Part shown: positions 4,014 to 54,876 of the stretch, one piece after another
Position numbering within the stretch: the first letter of the stretch is position 1
Layout: every line of letters begins with the position of its first letter
Source: Desulfitobacterium dehalogenans ATCC 51507
GTDB taxonomy: Bacteria > Bacillota > Desulfitobacteriia > Desulfitobacteriales > Desulfitobacteriaceae
Direction of reading: 5' to 3'
Assembly: GCF_000243155.2 (NCBI RefSeq)
Contig: NC_018017.1
Span: 3,720,001-3,784,000 of the forward strand
DNA: 64,000 bases
Notes under the pieces: model-generated
What the model was told of the DNA's origin: nothing
The model's database searches: none
Seen by the model: only the letters and a program-made list of their open reading frames with translations
Made by a program: the position numbers and the translations under genes

Positions 4014-4235
4014 AAAAAACTCCCATCCCTAAAGGGACGAGAGTAACTTCCCGCGGTACCACCCAATTTCAACTGCACTTTATCGATCGTAACGGTTCGC
4101 ACCGGCACTCATTATTACCTGAGTACAGCTCCAGGGCGAGTGCTTACCAAAGTCTCACGGCAACTCTCACCGACCGTTGCCTCTCTAAAATGAGGTAGTT
4201 TGGGCTTGCTCCCCTTCATCGCTTTTAAAAACCTA
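4014..4235 (-). promoter_or_regulatory. T-box leader of leuS (leucine specifier CTC)
   Basis: The minus strand has an AGAGAG-type motif in the Stem I region, a specifier region reading CACTCGCC (CTC, Leu, followed by a purine), and the conserved T-box GGGTGGTACCGCGG at 4051-4064. The terminator hairpin CTCTCGTCCC...GGGATGGGAG with a run of six T follows at 4015-4045. The bulge reads TGGT, which pairs with ACCA and so fits a tRNA-Leu with discriminator A. Known mechanism: uncharged tRNA stabilises the antiterminator. Confidence 0.95.
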
Positions 4236-36184: not shown

Positions 36185-36420
36185 CAAAAAAGCCCTTCAT
36201 CCCATAAAGGACGAAAGACTCGCGGTACCACCTTTTTTCAAGAAGCCCTGCCTTCCAAGCAAAGTTCTTGCACTTTAATGCTATAACGGGCAAACCGTCA
36301 AGGACTACTCTGTTCATCCTTGCCCCTCCTGTACGACCCAAGTCTCCAAGCGGAAAAGACTCTCAGCAAGTGTCTTTCTCTCTGAACCGTTGGTTAACTT
36401 TTCCTCACACTCTTAGGGTT
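36185..36420 (-). promoter_or_regulatory. T-box leader of valS (valine specifier GTC)
   Basis: Minus strand AGAGAG motif near 36375-36381, specifier region TTGGGTCGTAC (GTC, Val), T-box AGGTGGTACCGCG at 36221-36233, and terminator CTTTCGTCC-loop-GGATGAAGGGC followed by six T. The bulge TGGT pairs with ACCA, fitting tRNA-Val with discriminator A. Confidence 0.95.
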
Positions 36421-36447
36421 TCATTACACTCAATTATAATATAATTT

Positions 36448-43291: not shown

Positions 43292-45706
43292 CTAGGAGAT
43301 AGGGCGGTCCTCAGGAGTAGGGTCGGGAGGAATATCTCCCTGCCCAAACATCGGGAAGCGATTCATGGAGCTTAAGTATTCTTCAGATTCCGCTACCGGG
43401 AGAAGGGCGATCTTGATAACATCCTCCATCCGACTGACAAAATGGAATTCCAGCTCCTTGCGCACATTTTCCGGGACTTCTTCTAAGTCCTTGCTATTTT
43501 GCTCAGGCAAGATAACCTGTTTGATTCCTGCCCGGTGAGCGGCAAGAACTTTTTCCTTCACTCCACCGATAGGGAGAACATTGCCCCTCAGGGTGATTTC
43601 ACCGGTCATGGCTAAATCGGAAGGCACTGCTCGTTTGGCTAAAGCTGAAGCCATAGCCGTAGCCATTGTAATTCCTGCGGATGGACCATCCTTAGGAATC
43701 GCTCCTTCAGGAACGTGAATATGAAGATCGGTCTTTTCATAGAAATCATCCGGAATACCCAGCTCGCGGGAATGGGAGCGGACAAAGGTCCGGCCTGCAT
43801 AAGCCGATTCCTTCATCACATCCCCTAGCTTACCGGTTAAGGTCAGCTGACCTTTTCCGGGCAGAGGAATCACCTCGATGGTTAAAACATCTCCGCCCAC
43901 TTCCGTATAGGCCAGCCCTGTGGCTGCGCCAATTTCCGGTTTAAGCCTGGCTTTTTCGAACTGATAACGGGATGCTCCCAGAAGCTCTTCCAGTATCTCC
44001 TCCGTCAGTTCCACCGCCTTCCATTCCTTTTTCACGACCCGGGTCGCTACTTTACGGCACAGGTTGGCGATTTGACGCTCAAGGTTACGCACTCCCGATT
44101 CCCGCGTATAGCCTTGAACAATCTTTAAGATAACCCTGTCACCAAGCTCAAGTTGGCTAGCTTTTAAGCCGTGGGCTTTCATCTGCTTAGGTACAAGATA
44201 TCGTTTGGCGATGTTGACCTTCTCATCCTCTGTATAACCACTTAAGGAGATAACCTCCATCCGGTCCAAAAGGGGCCTGGGAATAGTGTATAAAGAATTG
44301 GCCGTCATGATAAACAAAGTATGAGATAAATCATAAGGTAAATCCAAATAATGATCGGAGAAACTGAAATTCTGCTCAGGGTCTAGAACCTCCAGCAATG
44401 CCGCCGCCGGATCGCCCCGGAAATCCGAAGCCATCTTATCGATTTCGTCCAGCAGAAAGACTGGATTGGCAGTCCCCGCCGTTCTCATTCCCTGAATAAT
44501 CCGTCCGGGAAGAGCACCAATATAAGTCCGTCTGTGTCCACGAATCTCTGCTTCATCCCGGACACCGCCCAAAGACATACGCACAAATTTCCGATCCAAA
44601 GCACGGGCTACGGATTTAGCCAGGGAAGTTTTCCCTACTCCCGGCGGTCCCACAAAACAAATAATTGGGCTTTTCATCTTGGGCGTCAGCTTGCGAATGG
44701 CTAAGAACTCGAGAATCCGCTCCTTGATCTTTTCCAGACCATAATGGTCCTCATTCAGTATTTTTTCCGCCCGCTTAATATCTGTTTTATCCTTGCTCAT
44801 GTTCGTCCAGGGAAGAGCCAGAATCCAATCCAAATAGGTACGTACTACTGTCCCTTCCGAGGAAGCCTGGGGCATTTTTTCCAGTCGATCGATTTCCTTT
44901 AAAGCCCGCTCTTCCACTTCTTCCGGAAGCTTGGCCTGAGCGACCTTTTCCCGGTATTCCTCGACTTCGGCCTGCTTTTCATCCTTATCTCCCAATTCCT
45001 TCTGAATAGCCTTCATCTGCTCCCGGAGATAGTATTCCTTCTGAGTTTTTTCCATCTGCTTGCGCACCCGCAGACCAATGCGGCGCTCCAGTTCCAGAAT
45101 CTCATTTTCCCGCATGATGATTTCTGCCAATCGCTCCAGCCGTTCAGCAACCTCCAGAGATTCCAGGATAGCCTGCTTATCTCCCAGCTTAAGATTCAGA
45201 TGGCTTGCCACAATATCCGCCAAACGCCCAGGATCATTGACCCCCAGAACCGTTCCCAGAGTTTCCTGGGGAACTTTTTTACTGAGCTTGGCATACTCTT
45301 CAAACTGGTGTATCACCCCATGGGTCAGAGCATCGATTTCCGGGGTGATCTCTTGGACCCCCTCTTCCGCTTCTTCGACCCGAACTTTAAAATAAGGTTC
45401 ATCCGTTATGAACTCAAGAATTTTTCCCCGGTTCTTTCCTTCCACGAGGATACGCATGGTTCCCCCAGGCAGCTTCAAAAGCTGCTTAATCTCAGCTAAA
45501 GTACCGATGGTATGGATGTCGTCAGGATTAGGAGAATCAATCTCAGTCTCTTTCTGAGCAGACAACAAAATGAGCCGCTCATCCATCATGGCTTGTTCAA
45601 TGGCTGCCATAGACCGCTCCCGCCCCACATCTAAATGAATGACCATATATGGAAAGACTAAAATCCCCCTCAAGGGGAGCAATGGTAATTCTCTCTCTTT
45701 GCTCAT
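43292..45706 (-). CDS. lon: ATP-dependent protease Lon (LonA)
   Basis: Degrades damaged and regulatory proteins. 804 residues: N-terminal substrate domain (1-200), coiled coil, AAA+ module with Walker [10 protein letters not shown] near residue 355 and Walker [11 protein letters not shown], and a C-terminal Ser-Lys protease domain with PKDGPSAGI (catalytic Ser near 675) and the Lys in [13 protein letters not shown] 45706 follows AGGGAGG. The tail runs about 30 residues past the protease core. Confidence 0.97.
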
Positions 45707-45791
45707 ATAATTTCCTCCCTAAAGAAAACCCTGCTTTTATTATTTTACCCGATGATACGTTTAGGCAAAGCTTCATTCATTCTGGTAGTGC

Positions 45792-45819
45792 GAAAAAAGC
45801 ACACTATCGTTAGTGTGCC
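45792..45819 (-). terminator. Terminator between lonB and lon
   Basis: Minus strand GCACACTA-ACGA-TAGTGTGC followed by TTTTTT. lon therefore has its own promoter or depends on read-through. Confidence 0.88.
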
Positions 45820-45838
45820 ATTCTCCCTTAGATATATT

Positions 45839-47578
45839 CTAGCATGAGTGCCCTTGGTCAGGCAAATTAACAGAGTTGGAAGGGGTTTTAGGATTAATAT
45901 CCAGACGAGATAAAATCTCATCGATCGCTGCATGCTTCTCTGGTTTTTCGTTGCCTTGCTCAACTAAAAGAGCACCTGCCAACACTTCATTAAGGGCCTC
46001 CACAGGAATCACTTCAAACCCTTCGGCATAATTCTTGAAGCGCTCCTGCCAATTCTCCTTCGGAATAAATACTCTGCGGCATCCCGCCTGATGGGCCGCT
46101 TCAATCTTAGCCGCGATTCCACCTACAGGCTTAACTCCCCCTCGAATGGATAATTCCCCTGTCATGGCTAAGTAATTATCCACCCTCTCTTTGCGAATAG
46201 CGGATACCACAGCTGTGGCAATGGCAATCCCTGCGGAAGGCCCATCAATAGGTACTCCCCCTGGGAAATTGACATGGATATCATAGTTATGGGGATGTAT
46301 TCCTAATTGCCGCCGAATCACTGTAAGCACATTTTCCACAGAGCTTTTGGCCATACTTTTACGGCGTGTCTTCCTAAAGCTGCTTCCTTGTTCCTCTTCT
46401 TCAACGATTCCTGTAACCAAAAGCTCCCCGGTGCCAGGAGTTACGGGATGAGCTGTAACTTCCAGTTCGATAAGCATTCCCATATTAGGGCCATAAACAG
46501 CCAAACCATTGACCAATCCGATTTCCGCCACCAAGGGCGCTTTACGTTCCGGCCTGGGTGCATACTGACCTGAAGTAACAACCCACTCCACTGTCGCCGC
46601 ATTGATCTCCAATTTCTTTTCTGTCTGGGCTACACCGGCTGCCAATTGAACGATATTTACTGCCTCCCGCCCATTGGTAGCATACTGCTTAGCTACGTTC
46701 AAAGCACTGGGAGTAATGGGTGTTTCCATTTTCGCCGCAGCACCTCGGGCAATTTGAGCGATTTCTTCGGGAAGCAAAGAACGAAAGAAAACTTCCATAC
46801 ACCGGGAACGTATAGCCGGGGGAATCTCCTCCGGACTCCGTGTGGTCGCTCCCACCATGCGAAAATCTGCCGGCAGCCCGTTTTGGAAAATATCATGAAT
46901 ATGAACCGGAATATTCGTGTCTTCTGAGCTATAATAGGCACTCTCCAGGATGACCTTTCGATCCTCAAGAACTTTAAGCAGTTTGTTGATTTGAATCGGA
47001 TGCAGTTCCCCGATCTCATCGATAAAAAGAACACCGCCATGAGCCTTGGTCACAGCTCCCGCCTTTGGCTGGGGAATCCCGGCCATGCCCATGGCACCCG
47101 CTCCTTGATAAATAGGGTCATGAACCGAACCGATCAAAGGATCGGCGATTCCCCGCTCATCAAAACGAGCGGTGGCTCCATCGATTTCTATAAACTTTGC
47201 ATCCTCTTTAAAAGGGGACATGGGGTTTTTCTTCGCTTCCTCAAGAACCAGGCGGGCAGCCGCCGTCTTTCCCACACCCGGAGGACCATAGATCAGAACA
47301 TGTTGAGGATTGGGCCCGCATAGAGCTGCCCTGAGAGCCTTAATCCCCTCTATCTGACCCACAATCTCTTCAAAATGAGCCGGCCGGGTCTTTTCCGCCA
47401 AGGGGGTGGTAAGAGCAATTTTGCGCATCTTTTCTAACTTTTCCAGTTCCTTTTTGGACTCCCGCTCAATGGAGACCTTGTTCCCCTGCTGGGATTTAAG
47501 CAATCCCCAAAAATATAAGCCAATAATAACAGCAAAGATCAGCTGCACCATCATAACAATTCCAGTCAATCCAACCAT
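45839..47578 (-). CDS. lonB: ATP-dependent protease LonB
   Basis: 579 residues; in Bacillus the forespore-specific, membrane-associated Lon paralogue. One membrane span near residues 5-27, Walker [11 protein letters not shown] near residue 101, Walker B VLFIDEIGEL, and a Ser-Lys protease domain with PIDGPSAGI near 447 and GGIAAKIEAAH. It lacks the Lon N-terminal substrate domain. ATG 47578 follows CAGGAGGG; the TTG at 47602 precedes this site and is rejected. Divergent from the trp operon, with about 85 bp before the trp promoter. Confidence 0.95.
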   Translation of the reverse strand: MVGLTGIVMMVQLIFAVIIGLYFWGLLKSQQGNKVSIERESKKELEKLEKMRKIALTTPLAEKTRPAHFEEIVGQIEGIKALRAALCGPNPQHVLIYGPPGVGKTAAARLVLEEAKKNPMSPFKEDAKFIEIDGATARFDERGIADPLIGSVHDPIYQGAGAMGMAGIPQPKAGAVTKAHGGVLFIDEIGELHPIQINKLLKVLEDRKVILESAYYSSEDTNIPVHIHDIFQNGLPADFRMVGATTRSPEEIPPAIRSRCMEVFFRSLLPEEIAQIARGAAAKMETPITPSALNVAKQYATNGREAVNIVQLAAGVAQTEKKLEINAATVEWVVTSGQYAPRPERKAPLVAEIGLVNGLAVYGPNMGMLIELEVTAHPVTPGTGELLVTGIVEEEEQGSSFRKTRRKSMAKSSVENVLTVIRRQLGIHPHNYDIHVNFPGGVPIDGPSAGIAIATAVVSAIRKERVDNYLAMTGELSIRGGVKPVGGIAAKIEAAHQAGCRRVFIPKENWQERFKNYAEGFEVIPVEALNEVLAGALLVEQGNEKPEKHAAIDEILSRLDINPKTPSNSVNLPDQGHSC

Positions 47579-47662
47579 ACTTTCTATTCCCTCCTGAAGC
47601 AAATACTTTACCTTTGGTAGTATTGCCAGAGAATAGTTTTTGAAAACTTTTTAAAATACTAT

Positions 47663-47691
47663 TTGACATTTATTTTTGAGCACTCTATAAT
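47663..47691 (+). promoter_or_regulatory. Consensus promoter of the trp operon
   Basis: TTGACA (47663-47668), 17-bp spacer, TATAAT (47686-47691); a full sigma-A match. Confidence 0.92.
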
Positions 47692-47699
47692 AACAGTAA

Positions 47700-48044
47700 A
47701 TTTATCCAGTAAATGCTAATGACAAGAAAGAGTACACCTTAGCCGGAATGTCCAAGAGAGTCAGCGTTGGTGGGAGCTGATACAGACTGTTTGGTGGAAT
47801 GGGTCTTTGAAGCGCAAGCTGAACGACTTTTTATCTTGAATCTCAGGATAGAGATGTCCAGTAGGTAAGCCGGGGGTTTCCCGTTACAGAAACACGGGTA
47901 TCGAGAGCATTGATAATTCTCTCCGCATCCGGTTAGAGGTATGGGACAACTTTTTTTACTCCAGTCGATTTCGCTGACCCATATAAATTAAGGTGGCAAC
48001 ACAGAAGTACTTTCTGTCCTTTTCATAGGACGGAAAGTTTTTTT
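47700..48044 (+). promoter_or_regulatory. First trp T-box (tryptophan specifier TGG)
   Basis: A complete T-box: GAAAGAGTACACC and AGAGAG near the start of Stem I, specifier region GGAATGGGTCTTTGAAGC with TGG at 47800-47802, the T-box AATTAAGGTGGCAACACAG (47986-48004), and the terminator ACTTTCTGTCCT-loop-AGGACGGAAAGT with seven T. The bulge reads TGGC, which pairs with GCCA, matching the discriminator G of tRNA-Trp. Confidence 0.93.
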
Positions 48045-48235
48045 ATTACCTAAAACAAAGTGCTGCCCTCCTCTGGATGAATAACGGTAACTTGCATGTC
48101 CGTTATCTTTGCGGCCAGATGAAGACAATGTTTCTCCGTACTTGATAGAGGTACTTGTGGACACACAAGTACAAATTAAGGTGGCACCACAGAAGCTTTC
48201 TGTCCTTTGGGATAGAAGGCTTTTTTTGGTATAAA
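48045..48235 (+). promoter_or_regulatory. Second trp T-box module, shortened or diverged
   Basis: A second T-box AAATTAAGGTGGCACCACAG (48173-48192), again with TGGC, is followed by GCTTTCTGTCC-loop-GGATAGAAGGC and seven T. The 130 nt before it hold a hairpin ATAACGG..CCGTTAT and the dyad GTACTTGTG-GACA-CACAAGTAC, but no AGAGAG motif and no TGG in a clear specifier loop. It may use a minimal Stem I that I cannot recognise, or be a degraded copy. Confidence 0.75.
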
Positions 48236-48260: not shown

Positions 48261-49067
48261 ATGGACATTCTCGAAAGAATTCTCAATGAGAAAAGAAAAA
48301 GGCTCCGGAATCTTGAAAAACAAACTCCCCTTTCAGAGCTTAAACGGCAATTAAAGGACAAAGTCCCTGCCATCTGTCCCGAAAAGCAAGGGCTTACCCC
48401 CAATTCCTTCCATGTCATTGCCGAAATCAAGCGCGCCTCCCCAAGCCAGGGGATTATACCTTGGCGTCTCTCCCTCGAAGAAACTCTTCAGGCTTATGAA
48501 TCCGGTGGAGCCTCTCTTATCTCCATACTCACCGAGGAAAATTTCTTCTTTGGGGGACCTGAGGACTTTCAAAAAATCCGCTCCTTAACCTCCCTTCCGC
48601 TCCTGCGTAAAGATTTTATCTTCTCTGAATATCAGGTTATCGAAAGCAGTGTCATGGGAGCGGATATAATTCTTCTCATTGCCGGGATTCTGGACGCTGC
48701 CGCACTATCCAATCTCCTTCACCTGACCCACGAACTGGGATTGAGAGCCCTGGTAGAATGCCGTGATGAAGAGGATATTTCCCAGGCACTTAAAGCTGGA
48801 GCGAAGATCATCGGCATCAACAACCGGGACCTGCGAACTTTCCGGATAAATCTTGAACGCACCCAAACCCTTAGCCCCCTGATTCCACCTAATTGCATCC
48901 TGGTTAGCGAAAGTGGAATTCATACTCCCGAAGATGCTGCATTCGTCTCCAAGTATGGCGCTCAGGCAGTCCTCGTAGGCGAATCCTGCCTCCTGTCCCC
49001 TGATCCTGCCCTGCATATCCGCTCCCTGCGTGAAGCAGGTCTGGGGGTGAGGACATGCCCAGGATAA
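48261..49067 (+). CDS. trpC: Indole-3-glycerol phosphate synthase
   Basis: Closes the indole ring from carboxyphenylamino-deoxyribulose phosphate. 268 residues with EIKRASPSQG (residues 57-66), LLRKDFIF, ALVECRDEEDI and INNRDLRTF, all barrel-active-site motifs; VSESGI near the end. GGAGGTGAT lies five bases before ATG 48261; the TTG at 48255 inside that box is rejected. First gene of trpCFDBAEG; overlaps trpF by 13 nt. Confidence 0.96.
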   Translation: MDILERILNEKRKRLRNLEKQTPLSELKRQLKDKVPAICPEKQGLTPNSFHVIAEIKRASPSQGIIPWRLSLEETLQAYESGGASLISILTEENFFFGGPEDFQKIRSLTSLPLLRKDFIFSEYQVIESSVMGADIILLIAGILDAAALSNLLHLTHELGLRALVECRDEEDISQALKAGAKIIGINNRDLRTFRINLERTQTLSPLIPPNCILVSESGIHTPEDAAFVSKYGAQAVLVGESCLLSPDPALHIRSLREAGLGVRTCPG

Positions 49068-49738
49068 AAATCTGTGGAATCCGTACTTTTGAAGAAGCCC
49101 GTTGGGCAGTTGAAGCCGGTGCAGATGCCCTGGGATTCATCTTCGTCCCCTACAGCAAACGTTATATCAAACCTGAGACCGCTCGGGAGATTATCCTTCG
49201 CTTACCCCCCTGGATAGGCAAAGTTGGAGTTTTCGCCCAGGAATCTCCCAAAAATGTCAGCCAAATTATCCGCGGGTGCCCCTTAGATACCCTTCAATTG
49301 CATGGGAATGAGGATCCTAGACTCTATCACCACCTGCCCGTAATAAAGATCAAAGCACTCTCTCTTCCCCCCGTACCTGATTCTGCCTCGGATGCGGATC
49401 CCACCTCCCAATCTTTTCTTGCCCAGTTCAGGGGGCTCCCCCCGGCCTCCCTCCATGGGATTCTCTTGGACTCGGCCCTCCAGGGGATGGCAGGTGGAAC
49501 AGGGGCCCCCCTCCCCTGGCATACCCCAGAGTTCCAGGATCTTCTACGCAGAGTCAAGAACCTTGGTTATCCTCTGATTCTAGCCGGGGGGCTCAGCCCT
49601 GACAACGTCCTGGAGGCCATCCGTTTAACCCAGCCTTACGGGGTGGATGTCAGCTCCGGAGTAGAGCGAGATGGTCGCAAAAATCGTGAAAAAATCCAAC
49701 ACTTTATCTCACGAATAAGAAAGGAGCCACCACTATGA
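49055..49738 (+). CDS. trpF: Phosphoribosylanthranilate isomerase
   Basis: Amadori isomerisation step of tryptophan synthesis. 227 residues with the catalytic Cys in IKICGIRT and LQLHGNEDP, GGLSPDNV and DVSSGVE near the end. It is about 20 residues longer than usual owing to a Pro/Ser/Asp-rich insertion near residues 106-132. ATG 49055 follows GGTGAGG; overlaps trpD as ATGA. Confidence 0.95.
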   Translation: MPRIKICGIRTFEEARWAVEAGADALGFIFVPYSKRYIKPETAREIILRLPPWIGKVGVFAQESPKNVSQIIRGCPLDTLQLHGNEDPRLYHHLPVIKIKALSLPPVPDSASDADPTSQSFLAQFRGLPPASLHGILLDSALQGMAGGTGAPLPWHTPEFQDLLRRVKNLGYPLILAGGLSPDNVLEAIRLTQPYGVDVSSGVERDGRKNREKIQHFISRIRKEPPL

Positions 49739-50745
49739 CCCAGGCGATTCGTCAATCCCTAAACCTCCTATCCCTGAAGCAGGATCTCCCTGCAGAGTTA
49801 GCTTTTACCGTAGTCCAGGACCTTTTGGCCGGGAAACTAACCCCGGCTCAGATTGGGGGACTGCTCCTGGGGCTAAGTCTTAAAGGAGAAACCCCTGGAG
49901 AAATCGCGGCCTTTGCTCAAACCCTAAGGGATGCCGGCCTTAAGATAAAAGCTCCTGAAGGGACCCTGGATACCTGTGGAACCGGAGGAGACCGCAGCGG
50001 TACCTTTAATATCTCCACAACCACAGCTTTTGTCATCGCCGGGGCCGGAGTTCCGGTAGCCAAACACGGAAACCGCTTTGCCTCCGGCCGTTGCGGCAGT
50101 GCCGATGTGTTAGAGCAGCTAGGCATTTCTCTCAAAACCACCCCGGAATCCAGTGAACGCCATCTCCAGCACATCGGCATGACCTTCCTTTTTGCTCAGA
50201 TTTATCATCCCGCTATGGCAAAAGTCGCCGCCGAACGCCGCGAACTCGGTGTCCGAACTATTTTTAATCTCTTGGGTCCCCTGCTCAATCCCGCCGGTGC
50301 CTCTTACCAATTGCTCGGGGTTTCCTCTCCCTCTCTACTCCCTAAAATGGCCAAAGCCCTCCAAATTCTCGGCATCAAACGGGCTGTCGTGGCTGTCGGT
50401 GAGGACGGTCTGGATGAAGTGACTCTGACAGGGGCTACTCAAGCCATACTCATTGATGGCGGGGAAATACGGCCCTTTATTATCCGGCCTGAAGAATATG
50501 GTCTCGACCTCTGTTCCCTTCGTGACCTTCAAGGGGGTTCACCCGCAGAAAACAGGGAGATTACCCTCCGCATTCTCCATGGGGAGAAAGGGCCCCAGCG
50601 GGATATTGTTTTGCTTAACGCCGGAACCGCTCTCTACGCCGCCAACAAAGTGACCGGCATCCAAGAAGGGATTGTCCTGGCTGCCGAGAGTCTGGATTCC
50701 GGGAAAGCCCTAAGCATACTGGAAAAACTCAGAGCATCTGCTTAG
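49735..50745 (+). CDS. trpD: Anthranilate phosphoribosyltransferase
   Basis: Joins anthranilate to PRPP. 336 residues; LDTCGTGGDRSGTFNIST (about residues 79-96) binds PRPP, with KHGNRFASGRCGSADVLE and the second-site VFNLLGPLLNP-like IFNLLGPLLNPAG. Overlaps trpF by 4 nt. Confidence 0.97.
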   Translation: MTQAIRQSLNLLSLKQDLPAELAFTVVQDLLAGKLTPAQIGGLLLGLSLKGETPGEIAAFAQTLRDAGLKIKAPEGTLDTCGTGGDRSGTFNISTTTAFVIAGAGVPVAKHGNRFASGRCGSADVLEQLGISLKTTPESSERHLQHIGMTFLFAQIYHPAMAKVAAERRELGVRTIFNLLGPLLNPAGASYQLLGVSSPSLLPKMAKALQILGIKRAVVAVGEDGLDEVTLTGATQAILIDGGEIRPFIIRPEEYGLDLCSLRDLQGGSPAENREITLRILHGEKGPQRDIVLLNAGTALYAANKVTGIQEGIVLAAESLDSGKALSILEKLRASA

Positions 50746-50764
50746 CTAAAGGGAGGGTTTAATC

Positions 50765-51964
50765 ATGATTCTGAAGGACCAAGACTTTATACCTCAACCA
50801 AACCGTTTCGGCAGCTATGGGGGGGCTTATGTCCCCGAGACCCTCATCCCTGTTTTGGATGAACTGGAACAGGCTTATTATGAAGCCCGGGAAGATCCCG
50901 GCTTTCAGAAAGAGTTGGAAGAGCTCTTAGCCAACTATGTAGGGCGCCCTTCCCTCCTCTACTATGCCCAAGGGCTCAGTAAATCCCTGGGCGGGGCCAG
51001 GATTTATCTCAAACGGGAAGATCTTAATCATACCGGTGCTCATAAAATCAACAACACCATGGGGCAAATTCTCTTGGCCAAACGAATGGGAAAAACCCGA
51101 GTCATCGCAGAGACAGGGGCTGGTCAGCACGGTGTAGCCACTGCTACCGCCTGTGCCCTTATGGGCTTGAATTGTGCGATCTACATGGGGGAGGAGGATG
51201 TAGGACGACAGCATTTAAATGTCTTGCGCATGAAAATGTTGGGCAGCGAAGTCCACTCGGTCACTACAGGATCAAAAACCTTAAAGGACGCCATCAATGA
51301 AGCCTTAAGAGACTGGGTTGCTCACCCCCAGGGCACTTTCTACTGTTTTGGGACTGCCGCCGGTCCCCATCCCTATCCCACCATCGTCCGGGATCTTCAG
51401 CGGATTATCGGTGAAGAAACCCGCTCTCAATTCCTAAATCTCCAGGGACGCCTTCCTGATCTGCTCATCGCCTGTGTGGGCGGGGGGAGCAATGCCATCG
51501 GTTTTTTCCATCCCTTTTTGGTCGACAAAAGTGTCGGACTGGTTGGGGTTGAAGCCGGGGGAATAGGCCCGGGCATAGGAGAACATGCAGCCACCTTGTC
51601 TTTAGGCCGTCCCGGCATCCTTCACGGGGCTTATAGCTATCTTTTGCAAGATGAGGATGGTCAGATTCCCGACACCCACTCCATTTCAGCCGGTCTCGAT
51701 TACCCTGGCGTCGGGCCTGAGCACAGCTACCTGAAAGACACTGGACGCGTCCACTATGTCAGTGTAACAGATGCCGAAACCCTGGAGGCCAGCCATCTCC
51801 TTGCCCGCACAGAGGGAATCCTGCCCGCCCTCGAAAGCGCCCACGCCCTTGCCTACGCCATTAAAATCGCCCCCACCCTTTCCCCCGAAAAACACATCAT
51901 CGTCAATTTATCCGGTCGGGGGGACAAAGACATGGAAACTTTTGCTCAATACATTCACGATTAA
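50765..51964 (+). CDS. trpB: Tryptophan synthase beta chain
   Basis: PLP enzyme joining indole and serine. 399 residues of the TrpB1 type: the PLP lysine in [12 protein letters not shown] near residue 95, [12 protein letters not shown], and the phosphate-binding [20 protein letters not shown] precedes ATG 50765. Confidence 0.98.
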
Positions 51965-51980
51965 CTAAGGAGGGAATGCC

Positions 51981-52847
51981 GTGTCTGATCGCTTAGAAAC
52001 ATCCCTTGCCAGAGCTCGTCTTAAAACACCTATGAACCCTATGGGCATGGGATTAATCACTTATCTTATGGCCGGGGACCCTGATTCCGAAACAACCCTG
52101 CGCCGGTTAACCGGCCTGGGGGAGGTGGGGGTCGATATCCTTGAACTGGGCGTTCCTTTCAGTGACCCCATCGCCGATGGCTCTGTAATTCAATCTGCCG
52201 GCTTACGAGCCCTTCAGCAGGGGATAAATCTTAAAAAGGTCCTAAACCTCGTGGCCCGGTTCCGCAAAGAAAATCAGGACACTCCCCTGCTTTTAATGAG
52301 CTACCTCAATCCCCTGCTCCATTACGGCTATGACCGTTTCCTCAATGACGCTTTCACAGCCGGGGTCGATGGTTTGATACTGCCCGATCTGCCTTGGCGG
52401 GAAAGCACACCTTTCCGGCAAAGAGCCTATGAACTTCTGCAAGACCGATTGGCCTTTATCCCTATGATTGCCCAGACCAGCCGGCCCAACCACATTCATG
52501 ACCTTGCCCAGGAACAAAAGGGCTTTGTCTACGTCCTATCCCGTAACGGGATAACCGGAGGGGATGCGGAAATTCCATTGCAGACCCTGCAATTCATTCA
52601 CTCTCTCCAGACCGTTCTTTCCACCCCGTGCTATGTGGGATTCGGAATCCAATCTTCAGCCCAAGTGCATAAATTGAGCCAAGCCTGCCAAGGAGTCATT
52701 GTAGGCAGTGCTCTGGTCAAAAAGTTTGCTGAACTTGATTCCCGCCCTCTCCCTGAGCAAGAGTTAAGATGCCGTGAACAAGATATTTACACCTGGATTG
52801 GTTCACTGAGAAAGACACCGGTTAAGGAGGAAATTGCATGCGAATGA
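51981..52847 (+). CDS. trpA: Tryptophan synthase alpha chain
   Basis: Splits indole-glycerol phosphate to indole, which passes to TrpB. 288 residues with the catalytic Glu in ELGVPFSDPIADG and Asp in GLILPDLPWRES, and YVGFGIQSSAQV near the end. GTG 51981 follows AAGGAGGG; overlaps trpE by 10 nt. Confidence 0.97.
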   Translation: MSDRLETSLARARLKTPMNPMGMGLITYLMAGDPDSETTLRRLTGLGEVGVDILELGVPFSDPIADGSVIQSAGLRALQQGINLKKVLNLVARFRKENQDTPLLLMSYLNPLLHYGYDRFLNDAFTAGVDGLILPDLPWRESTPFRQRAYELLQDRLAFIPMIAQTSRPNHIHDLAQEQKGFVYVLSRNGITGGDAEIPLQTLQFIHSLQTVLSTPCYVGFGIQSSAQVHKLSQACQGVIVGSALVKKFAELDSRPLPEQELRCREQDIYTWIGSLRKTPVKEEIACE

Positions 52848-54253
52848 TCCAAAAAGAATGGATCCTCGACCCCTTTCCTTCAACAAGGTCTGATTGGGTA
52901 ATGAATCTCCGCCAATTCTCAGAGACCCTGGGCGAAAAATGCTATGCCCTCCTGGAAGGAAATGAGGAAGATCATCAACGGACCTATTATGGATTCGGTG
53001 AGGGCTGGATTTTATCCCCCGAGACCTGGGAACCTGGTCTCCCCCCCGATCCTCTAGACCACCTTAGGGATTTTTGCCGAAAAAGCTTCCCGGAAAAAAC
53101 CTGTGAAAGCGGCATCATCGGTTACCTGGATTATGAGTGGGGGCTTCTCTGGCAAAAGCCCAAAGCTACTACCGCGAAACCCAACTACTTTTTTCGCCTT
53201 TGTCCCATTAATCTGGTCCTCCTTCCCGGTTCACAAAAAGTCATCCTTGAGATATTCTCCAAAGATGACTCGGAACTGATCAAGCTCTATGATCATTGGT
53301 CGAAAAACCTTGACCGCTGGATTTCTCAAAATCACTATCTAAGCCAAAATCACTTTCAGGAAACCACCCCGTCGAAGGTTACGGCACTGGAAATCTCCAT
53401 GGAACAACCGCACAATCCCCTGACCGATCCGATCCAATGGCATGCCAATTTCAAACCTTCGGAGTTTCTATCCCATGTGGAAAAGATCAAAGAGTATATC
53501 CGTTCCGGAGACATTTTCCAAGCTGTACTCTCCCAGTGTTTTACCCTGAAAAGGCGTATCGATCCCTGGTCTGCCTATCAAAAGCTGCGGATTCTCAATC
53601 CTTCCCCTTGGCTCTTTTGCCTGTTCGGAGAAAAGGAAACCTTGGTAGGCAGTTCCCCGGAGCTTATGCTCTCCTCGGTGGGATCCCAAATTCAAACCCG
53701 TCCCATTGCCGGGACACGGCCCCGGGGAAAAGATCCTCTGGAAGATGAGCAGCTCGAACAAGAACTTCGGGAAGATGCTAAAGAAATGGCCGAACACGCC
53801 ATGCTTGTCGACCTGGGGCGAAATGACCTGGGCCGGGTCTCTGAATATGGGAGCATTTGCCTCAGTCAATTCTGTAGCATCCAGCGCTTCTCTCACGTCA
53901 TGCACATCGTTTCCACTGTTGAGGGCCGGCTGGGGGCCGCTTATGATTCTTTGGACGCCTTGCAAGCGGTTCTGCCTGCAGGTACCCTAAGCGGTGCTCC
54001 TAAAGTCCGGGCTATGGAAATCCTTCAGGAATTGGAGCCTACCCGCCGGGGCCCCTACGGCGGGGCCCTCGGCATCTACCGCTGGAATGGGGATCTGGAT
54101 TTCTGTATCACCATACGAACATTGACTGTCAAGGATGATCAAGTCAGCGTTCAAAGCGGGGCTGGAATTGTTTTTGACTCCATTCCCGAACGGGAATACG
54201 AGGAGACCCTACATAAGGCGAGAGTCTTGTTCAAGGTCGTGGAAGATTTGTAA
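52838..54253 (+). CDS. trpE: Anthranilate synthase component I
   Basis: Makes anthranilate from chorismate with ammonia from TrpG. 471 residues; PIAGTRPRG marks TrpE rather than PabB (which has PIKGT). Further motifs are LVDLGRNDLGRV, PAGTLSGAPKVRAMEI and GAGIVFDSIPEREYEETLHKA. In the tryptophan-binding site the usual LLES reads LLEG (near residue 35), a change in a feedback-inhibition residue. ATG 52838 follows AAGGAGG. Placed near the operon end, unlike the usual first position. Confidence 0.95.
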   Translation: MRMIQKEWILDPFPSTRSDWVMNLRQFSETLGEKCYALLEGNEEDHQRTYYGFGEGWILSPETWEPGLPPDPLDHLRDFCRKSFPEKTCESGIIGYLDYEWGLLWQKPKATTAKPNYFFRLCPINLVLLPGSQKVILEIFSKDDSELIKLYDHWSKNLDRWISQNHYLSQNHFQETTPSKVTALEISMEQPHNPLTDPIQWHANFKPSEFLSHVEKIKEYIRSGDIFQAVLSQCFTLKRRIDPWSAYQKLRILNPSPWLFCLFGEKETLVGSSPELMLSSVGSQIQTRPIAGTRPRGKDPLEDEQLEQELREDAKEMAEHAMLVDLGRNDLGRVSEYGSICLSQFCSIQRFSHVMHIVSTVEGRLGAAYDSLDALQAVLPAGTLSGAPKVRAMEILQELEPTRRGPYGGALGIYRWNGDLDFCITIRTLTVKDDQVSVQSGAGIVFDSIPEREYEETLHKARVLFKVVEDL

Positions 54254-54285
54254 AATCCGCAGTCATCTAGGAAAGGAGGCCCCTT

Positions 54286-54876
54286 ATGCTGGCCATCATA
54301 GATAACTACGACTCCTTCACCTATAATCTGGTTCAAGCCTTCGGCGAATTGGGGGAAAAAATCATAGTCTATAAAAACGATGAATTATCCGGGGCGGAAT
54401 TTCTCTCCGCAAGTCCTGACGGGGTGGTCATCTCACCAGGACCCTGCACTCCCAATGAAGCCGGAATCTCTCTCGAGGTCATCCGCCTCCTCAATGAACA
54501 TGCCCAAAAAGGTTGGCCCATCCCTTTGCTGGGAGTTTGTCTCGGACACCAGGCTCTTGCCCAGGCCTTTGGATCTGAAATAACCGTCGCTCCCGAAGTT
54601 ATTCATGGCAAGCAATCCCCCATTTATCATGATCAAGCAGCCCTTTTCTCGGAATGCTCACAAGGGTTTTTGGCAGGAAGATATCATTCACTCATGATTG
54701 ATCCCCTTGGTCTGAGCCCCCTCTTCATCGTCACTGCCCGCACTGAAAACAATCTTATTATGGGGATTCGCCATCGCTATTACCCCTTTTATGGGATACA
54801 ATTTCACCCGGAGAGTATCCTAACCCCGGAAGGACCACATATCCTGCGTTCCTTCCTCGCCCAGATTTACAGCTAG
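54286..54876 (+). CDS. trpG: Anthranilate synthase component II, glutamine amidotransferase
   Basis: Supplies ammonia to TrpE. 196 residues with NYDSFTYNLVQAFGE at the start, the catalytic Cys in GVCLGHQALAQAFG, and the His/Glu pair in IQFHPESILTPEG. It could also serve PabB, since many Firmicutes share one subunit. AAAGGAGG precedes ATG 54286. Last gene of the trp operon. Confidence 0.95.
   Translation: MLAIIDNYDSFTYNLVQAFGELGEKIIVYKNDELSGAEFLSASPDGVVISPGPCTPNEAGISLEVIRLLNEHAQKGWPIPLLGVCLGHQALAQAFGSEITVAPEVIHGKQSPIYHDQAALFSECSQGFLAGRYHSLMIDPLGLSPLFIVTARTENNLIMGIRHRYYPFYGIQFHPESILTPEGPHILRSFLAQIYS

Follow-up and report, generated by a model that had tools for sequence, protein, structure and literature searches.

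A partially tandem T-box before the trp operon of Desulfitobacterium dehalogenans with a second discriminator and terminator lacking a detectable Stem I

The trp operon and its leader

The window analysed here is a 64,000-nucleotide stretch of Desulfitobacterium dehalogenans ATCC 51507 (G000), positions 3,720,001 to 3,784,000 of contig C1 (4,321,753 bases, the single contig of this genome); all positions below are those of the window unless another genome is named. On the plus strand at 48261-54876 it carries the genes trpC-F-D-B-A-E-G, recognised as open reading frames with Pfam matches (IGPS, PRAI, Glycos_transf_3, PALP, Trp_syntA, Chorismate_bind and GATase) and read as an operon from the leader described here. 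Divergent from this leader, on the minus strand at 43292-47602, lie two genes that were named as Lon-type proteases by translation only, and two further full T-boxes are found on the minus strand at 4030-4228 and 36204-36423 (108.1 and 97.6 bits).

A sigma-70-type promoter-like site (TTGACA-17-TATAAT, 12 of 12 matches) lies at 47663-47691 on the plus strand, before the first of two T-box modules. It was the sole such site found on either strand between 47560 and 48300, where shuffled sequences gave 1.1 ± 1.0 sites at the minimum quality, and a promoter of its own for module 2 was rejected on this result. A terminator scan of the leader returned three sites, compared with 0.6 ± 0.7 in shuffles, and two of the three are the terminators of the two modules.

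Module 1 is a complete T-box

Module 1 (47710-48024, plus strand) matches the T-box family RF00230 over model positions 1-219 with 88.6 bits (E = 2.1e-19), a score slightly below the gathering score of 93 bits; the match is full-length and includes Stem I. Where the Rfam alignment places the specifier loop, we read by eye a TGG codon for Trp (47800-47802, plus strand, in the context GAA-TGG-GTC), and this specifier agrees with the genes that the leader controls. The first module is thus the full T-box with a TGG specifier that the original prediction had described. Further downstream on the same strand lie a UGGC at 47994-47997, complementary to the GCCA of tRNA-Trp, and terminator 1 at 48009-48038, with 12 pairs and a T run after them.

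Module 2 is a discriminator with a terminator

Module 2 also lies on the plus strand. After the spacer it carries an element CTCCGTACTTGATAGAGG at 48134-48151, which ends in the RRRxG motif AGAGG (48147-48151) and can be recognised in all five related leaders described below. Stem III follows at 48152-48171 with eight pairs (TACTTGTG / CACAAGTA), then C and AA, so that the module passes a test for RRRxG, Stem III and AA with AGAGG, an eight-pair stem and AA one base apart. The antiterminator at 48178-48207 consists of helix A1 (AAGG/CCTT), a seven-nucleotide bulge TGGCACC (48182-48188) with the UGGN next to A1, and helix A2 (ACAGAA/TTCTGT). It is mutually exclusive with terminator 2 at 48191-48224, which has 15 pairs and then a T run. 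The UGGC at 48182-48185 matches, by sequence, the GCCA of tRNA-Trp. A tRNA-Trp(CCA) gene was located with RF00005 and ARAGORN (16 stretches scanned out of 73 tRNA hits; a search by sequence pattern gave no match), and its GCCA end is complementary to the UGGC of both modules.

A covariance model of the discriminator scored module 2 at 48.0 bits (E = 1.6e-9 over the whole genome, with module 2 itself in the training set). Independently of this model, the terminator scan and the recurrence of the unit in relatives also speak against a chance match. The predicted folding energy of the terminator was -20.0 kcal/mol, compared with -4.5 kcal/mol for the antiterminator. In rough folds of short pieces, terminators were predicted over antiterminators for both modules in 22 of 22 leaders, suggesting that the default of both modules is off.

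Scans with RF00230 gave no match to module 2 in a 2-kb piece and, in a 231-base piece, only a 5'-truncated one (model 97-219, 30.8 bits, E = 1.8e-5), which aligns poorly in the part preceding Stem III. A normal Stem I with a UGG specifier, which would have spoken against the original prediction, was not among the results of this covariance search; only the 3' half was found. These results confirm that module 2 is a T-box discriminator domain plus a terminator, without a detectable Stem I or specifier. The T-box, TGGC bulge and terminator predicted for this module are all in place, and the roughly 130 nt said to precede its T-box come to about 133 nt counted from terminator 1.

The spacer between the modules

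The spacer at 48046-48131 (plus strand) has neither a Stem I nor a specifier that is conserved, and it has diverged, with indels between relatives. Folding of 48055-48128 was no better than that of shuffles (z = 0.19). A Stem I with a specifier codon in module 2 was not found, either as a full-length RF00230 match or as anything conserved there in the relatives. As predicted, no AGAGAG was seen by eye in the spacer and no TGG could be placed: the single TGG (in CTCTGGATG) is missing in the closest relative, G002, which reads CTCCGGATG and whose TrpC is 80% identical to that of G000.

The original prediction had offered a minimal-stem T-box as one reading of module 2, and the spacer could supply an ultrashort Stem I, as in the short-stem translational T-boxes. 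By eye, the G000 spacer could form TCTGG-ATGA-ATAACGG...CCGTTAT-CTTTGCGG-CCAGA, and the predicted centroid fold of the spacer is of a similar kind. Yet the hairpin ATAACGG...CCGTTAT falls into a 31-column gap in G002 and is absent in G001, G009 and G010; its internal loop holds no TGG, the spacer folds no more stably than its shuffled versions, and the five related leaders share no conserved specifier. With no conserved short stem that carries a specifier in its loop, we rejected this reading as highly improbable.

A leader peptide in the spacer was likewise rejected. The 22-codon frame of G000, with its ATG at 48077, contains no Trp codons and lacks a clear ribosome site; its G002 counterpart ends, by eye, after four codons.

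Conservation of the second module in related trp leaders

Comparison with related genomes, which had been proposed as a check, showed that the layout of a full T-box followed by a truncated one recurs. Together with G000 it is found, in genomes of the same genus and family, before trpC in G001, G002 and G009, and at a contig end in G010, where the assignment to trp comes from leader similarity alone and no gene was seen in the contig stretch. In the stretch that starts at terminator 1 and stops short of the antiterminator, pairwise identity among these five leaders was 22-65% (z from -0.8 to 2.1 relative to shuffles). Diverged as this stretch is, the Stem III helix and the element preceding it can still be recognised. 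The strict test for RRRxG, Stem III and AA was passed by three of the five second modules of trp type; those of G001 and G009 failed. The terminator part of module 2 was 67-92% identical between pairs, and the 17-base 5' strand of the antiterminator, which lies outside the terminator hairpin, 88-100%. In 10 of 10 leader pairs this strand was better conserved than either of the other two parts. Helix A2 of G001 has changed from CAGAA..TTCTG to CGGAA..TTCCG, a compensatory change that keeps the helix. In comparison with the poorly kept stretch before it, the conservation of the antiterminator 5' strand does not fit the word "remnant", which the original prediction had considered for this unit; judged from its sequence, module 2 looks functional.

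These data also bear on an explanation in which module 2 is a fail-safe terminator that would cut the leak from terminator 1, its T-box-like part being the fossil of a duplication that senses no tRNA. Terminator 2 is predicted to be slightly more stable than terminator 1 in five of the five related leaders, Stem I and Stem II are absent from module 2, and solitary units occur in relatives, among them a very reduced one before ileS, all of which would suit such a role. Yet the antiterminator 5' strand and the bulge would be useless to a plain terminator and are the very part that is best conserved in every pair, and the same argument holds for the compensatory change in helix A2. A constitutive stop, moreover, would be expected to silence the trp genes even in starvation unless it were opposed. 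We consider the fail-safe explanation unlikely.

As judged by eye, trpC is preceded by two complete T-boxes in two of the genomes, G064 and G066. Across the seven trp leaders, full or truncated, a conserved element reads CCGCA in seven of seven first modules and CYGTA in six of seven second modules. This difference, in a stretch too short for a tree, is a hint that the truncated second modules may descend from full ones, Stem I and Stem II having been lost from an ancestral full tandem and the discriminator retained.

Partially tandem T-boxes recur in the lineage

In 16 genomes for which all hits were listed, a covariance model, R1, built from 25 antiterminators found 230. The 16 genomes were chosen by hand: G000, five relatives (four of them with the trp pair already known) and one genome from each of ten further genera. 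R1 is incomplete in that three RF00230 matches in nine genomes had no R1 hit. Picked by eye, and recounted by script for nine genomes, 20 pairs of a full and a truncated T-box, 83-251 nt apart, were found in 12 of the 16 genomes. They precede trp genes (5), serC (6), DAHP synthase (4) and sodium:solute symporters (2), and in one case each a prephenate dehydratase, a transporter binding protein and a hydroxyacid dehydrogenase of the serA type. Gene names in the relatives rest on Pfam at 10 loci (7 of the 20 pair loci) and otherwise on reading of the translations; serC at G001:C102, a contig end with no gene in the stretch seen, was named from leader similarity only.

All 20 first modules gave a full-length RF00230 match (73.8-121.7 bits), whereas the truncated second modules either were missed or matched over 34-230 bases with a score of no more than 43.5 bits. 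As a control, the same scan recovered each unit of the full tandem in G007 (114.4 and 112.8 bits). Over 22 leaders, 11 first and 11 second modules passed the test for RRRxG, Stem III and AA, compared with 1.6 and 1.3 in shuffles; for the serC leaders, one of six second modules passed in its strict form. The fourth base of UGGN was identical between the two modules in 19 of the 20 partial tandems, the exception being G010, with C in module 1 and U in module 2. For eight gene groups, of which three have C and five have U, we worked out by hand that all groups would agree by chance in 1 of 56 cases, and such agreement is also expected from common descent.

G000 itself has a second partial tandem (L014), on the reverse strand of C1 near 3989788-3990130, before a serC-like class-V aminotransferase gene. 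Its second antiterminator and terminator lie about 150 nt past the first and have no Stem I.

A scan of 398 genomes of the phylum with a two-core pattern, limited to one spacing range, gave 40 matches in 39 genomes, whereas reversing the pattern gave 11. By eye, about 29 of the 40 looked T-box-like, and some of the 40 are chance matches. Thirty loci were fetched, and 20 T-box-like ones chosen by hand from them were scanned with Rfam: the first module was full in 20 of 20 and the second in 0 of 20, with a weak match to the 3' half of RF00230 at the second module in three. Most of these 20 loci precede DAHP synthase, as read from translations, L222 alone having been checked with Pfam. A second unit poor in stems had been expected to be unusual; with 20 pairs in 16 genomes and more in the phylum scan, the layout is not a one-off and recurs in the lineage.

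Solitary discriminators

In nine genomes, the 148 R1 hits comprise 126 in full T-boxes, 16 second modules without Stem I, four solitary units without Stem I and two chance-like matches. The latter were set aside: one is a weak hit in G003 within what reads as a recA gene, and the other a weak hit in G000 without a terminator. Thus 16 of the 20 discriminators that lack Stem I sit 83-251 nt behind a full T-box, and the idea that such units occur exclusively there was rejected by the four solitary ones. The first of these (L248 in G009; about 569-700) is a discriminator with a terminator before a DAHP synthase gene, right behind a TATAAT-like box, and no full T-box match was found upstream of it. 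The other three, all in reverse orientation, precede a tyrS-like gene (L249 in G007; about 790-960), an ileS-like gene (L250 in G006; about 872-930, very reduced and directly behind an upstream frame) and a region with no obvious amino-acid gene close by (L251, G006:C1:2909171; about 805-960). These three are possibly decayed T-boxes or stand-alone sensors. The four solitary units imply either that loss of Stem I needs no decoder in cis or that such units are decaying.

The solitary units could also speak for sensing in trans, in which module 2 would read free uncharged tRNA by its acceptor end alone and its specificity would come from pairing of UGGC with tRNAs that have a G discriminator base. 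The T-box discriminator domain has been described as sufficient for aminoacylation sensing, as this explanation requires. Against it, UGGC would be expected to take any tRNA with a G discriminator base, and the position of 16 of the 20 units behind a full T-box would be left unexplained. Sensing in trans appears distinctly unlikely to us.

One decoder and two possible checkpoints

The explanation we favour, and hold to be somewhat probable, is that the leader is one partially tandem T-box with two checkpoints in series, the second of which is fed by tRNA from module 1. It would have a single decoding domain (Stem I with its UGG specifier, Stem II and IIA/B), followed by two units of discriminator and terminator. 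The anticodon of uncharged tRNA-Trp would bind Stem I and its CCA end would hold antiterminator 1, so that the polymerase passes terminator 1. Module 2, without a decoder of its own, would be transcribed next, and the CCA end of a tRNA-Trp would have to hold antiterminator 2 as well; if it did not, terminator 2 would stop transcription. The tRNA at module 2 would most likely be still held, or re-captured, by the Stem I of module 1, a short tether away. The trp genes would then be read only if the tRNA were found uncharged twice, which may lower the leak and sharpen the response.

Module 2 keeps a whole discriminator and terminator, and the lone promoter-like site precedes module 1; both observations argue for this explanation, as do the predicted off state of both modules, the shared fourth base of UGGN in 19 of 20 partial tandems and the placement of 16 of 20 units without Stem I behind a full T-box. 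Since only the discriminator is kept and its UGGC matches that of module 1 and the GCCA of tRNA-Trp, a stem-less unit reading acceptor ends fits best. That part of the original prediction, in which the acceptor ends would be supplied by module 1, is thus its better supported reading, and its description as a remnant does not suit the discriminator. The anatomy, the conservation, the operon and the tRNA match were shown directly, and from them we infer that module 2 senses tRNA; that this tRNA comes from module 1 in cis is the least certain part of the explanation. Against it stand the four solitary units without Stem I and the second modules of G001, G009 and five of the six serC leaders, which do not pass the strict test for the Stem III motif. 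The mismatch of C and U in G010 also counts against it and is eased by the commonness of U opposite a G discriminator base, reported for 46% of Trp T-boxes (PMC7778990).

A stricter form of this mechanism is a relay, in which the CCA end of one tethered tRNA would be handed from antiterminator 1 to antiterminator 2, so that charging would be proofread twice per transcription event. We regard the relay as possible and on the whole doubtful. If it were true, the T-box would be a two-step proofreading device, and the presence, before several unrelated operons, of second copies that have a discriminator and no Stem I would be explained.

Relation to known T-boxes

The abstract of Vitreschak et al. 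2008 is said to describe a structural T-box class with duplicated terminator-antiterminator elements. A partially tandem T-box is taken here to mean a leader in which a complete T-box precedes a further antiterminator-terminator unit that has no Stem I, and this is the arrangement found here. The kind is already known, and this trp leader is a further member; it was not named in the titles and abstract beginnings that our literature search covered, with most subscription papers outside that search. Partially tandem T-boxes have been published with their mode of action given as unknown (PMC7583486). In the present leader the copied part takes in Stem III with its flanks and amounts to the entire discriminator under its 2019 definition.

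Tandem T-boxes are reported before the trp and thrS operons of Bacillota (PMC12452182), and several adjacent T-boxes before thrZ and trpE (PMC2494555). Double T-boxes have been reported elsewhere with the suggestion that they might sharpen the response (PMC9413887). Full tandems, such as those before a trpE-like gene in G007 and the trp genes of G064 and G066, share with our leader two terminators in series before amino-acid genes, but each of their units has its own Stem I, which the second unit here lacks. The short- and ultrashort-stem translational T-boxes resemble module 2 in their reduced decoding half; they are described as keeping the specifier and acting on translation, whereas module 2 has no placed specifier and has a terminator with a T run (PMC7583486). 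The T box-ppGpp tandem, an AND gate, also places two switches in series, but it responds to two ligands, whereas here one ligand would be tested twice (PMC5912903, PMC9481103).

The leaders with two full T-boxes (G064, G066) and those with truncated second units (G000, G001, G002, G009, G010) form a natural series, which makes the question of whether one decoder serves two checkpoints accessible to a simple transcription test. If it does, sharper or less leaky control would be gained from a second copy of the sensor's cheap half alone.

Predicted pairings around the second discriminator

A GUGCYGC at the start of the spacer (48059-48067; also in G002 and G010) could pair with the T-box core GGUGGCAC through complementary bases, and does so in the fold predicted for module 2. 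We compared pairing of spacer and core with shuffles in the 17 second modules that have a spacer of sufficient length, and obtained values of 0.01 for the trp leader of G002, 0.03 for L211, 0.11 for the trp leader of G000 and 0.13 for G010. Of the three leaders with GUGCYGC, the result is suggestive in G002 alone. The pairing beat 95% of the shuffles in only 2 of the 17, and a general rule in which it would hide the bulge was not supported. An element like YCYGUACYU..GAG (48134-48151 in the window) is kept before Stem III in many second modules, where the F-box region of module 1 is absent, and one predicted fold of module 2 pairs the element at 48134-48151 with the antiterminator 5' strand.
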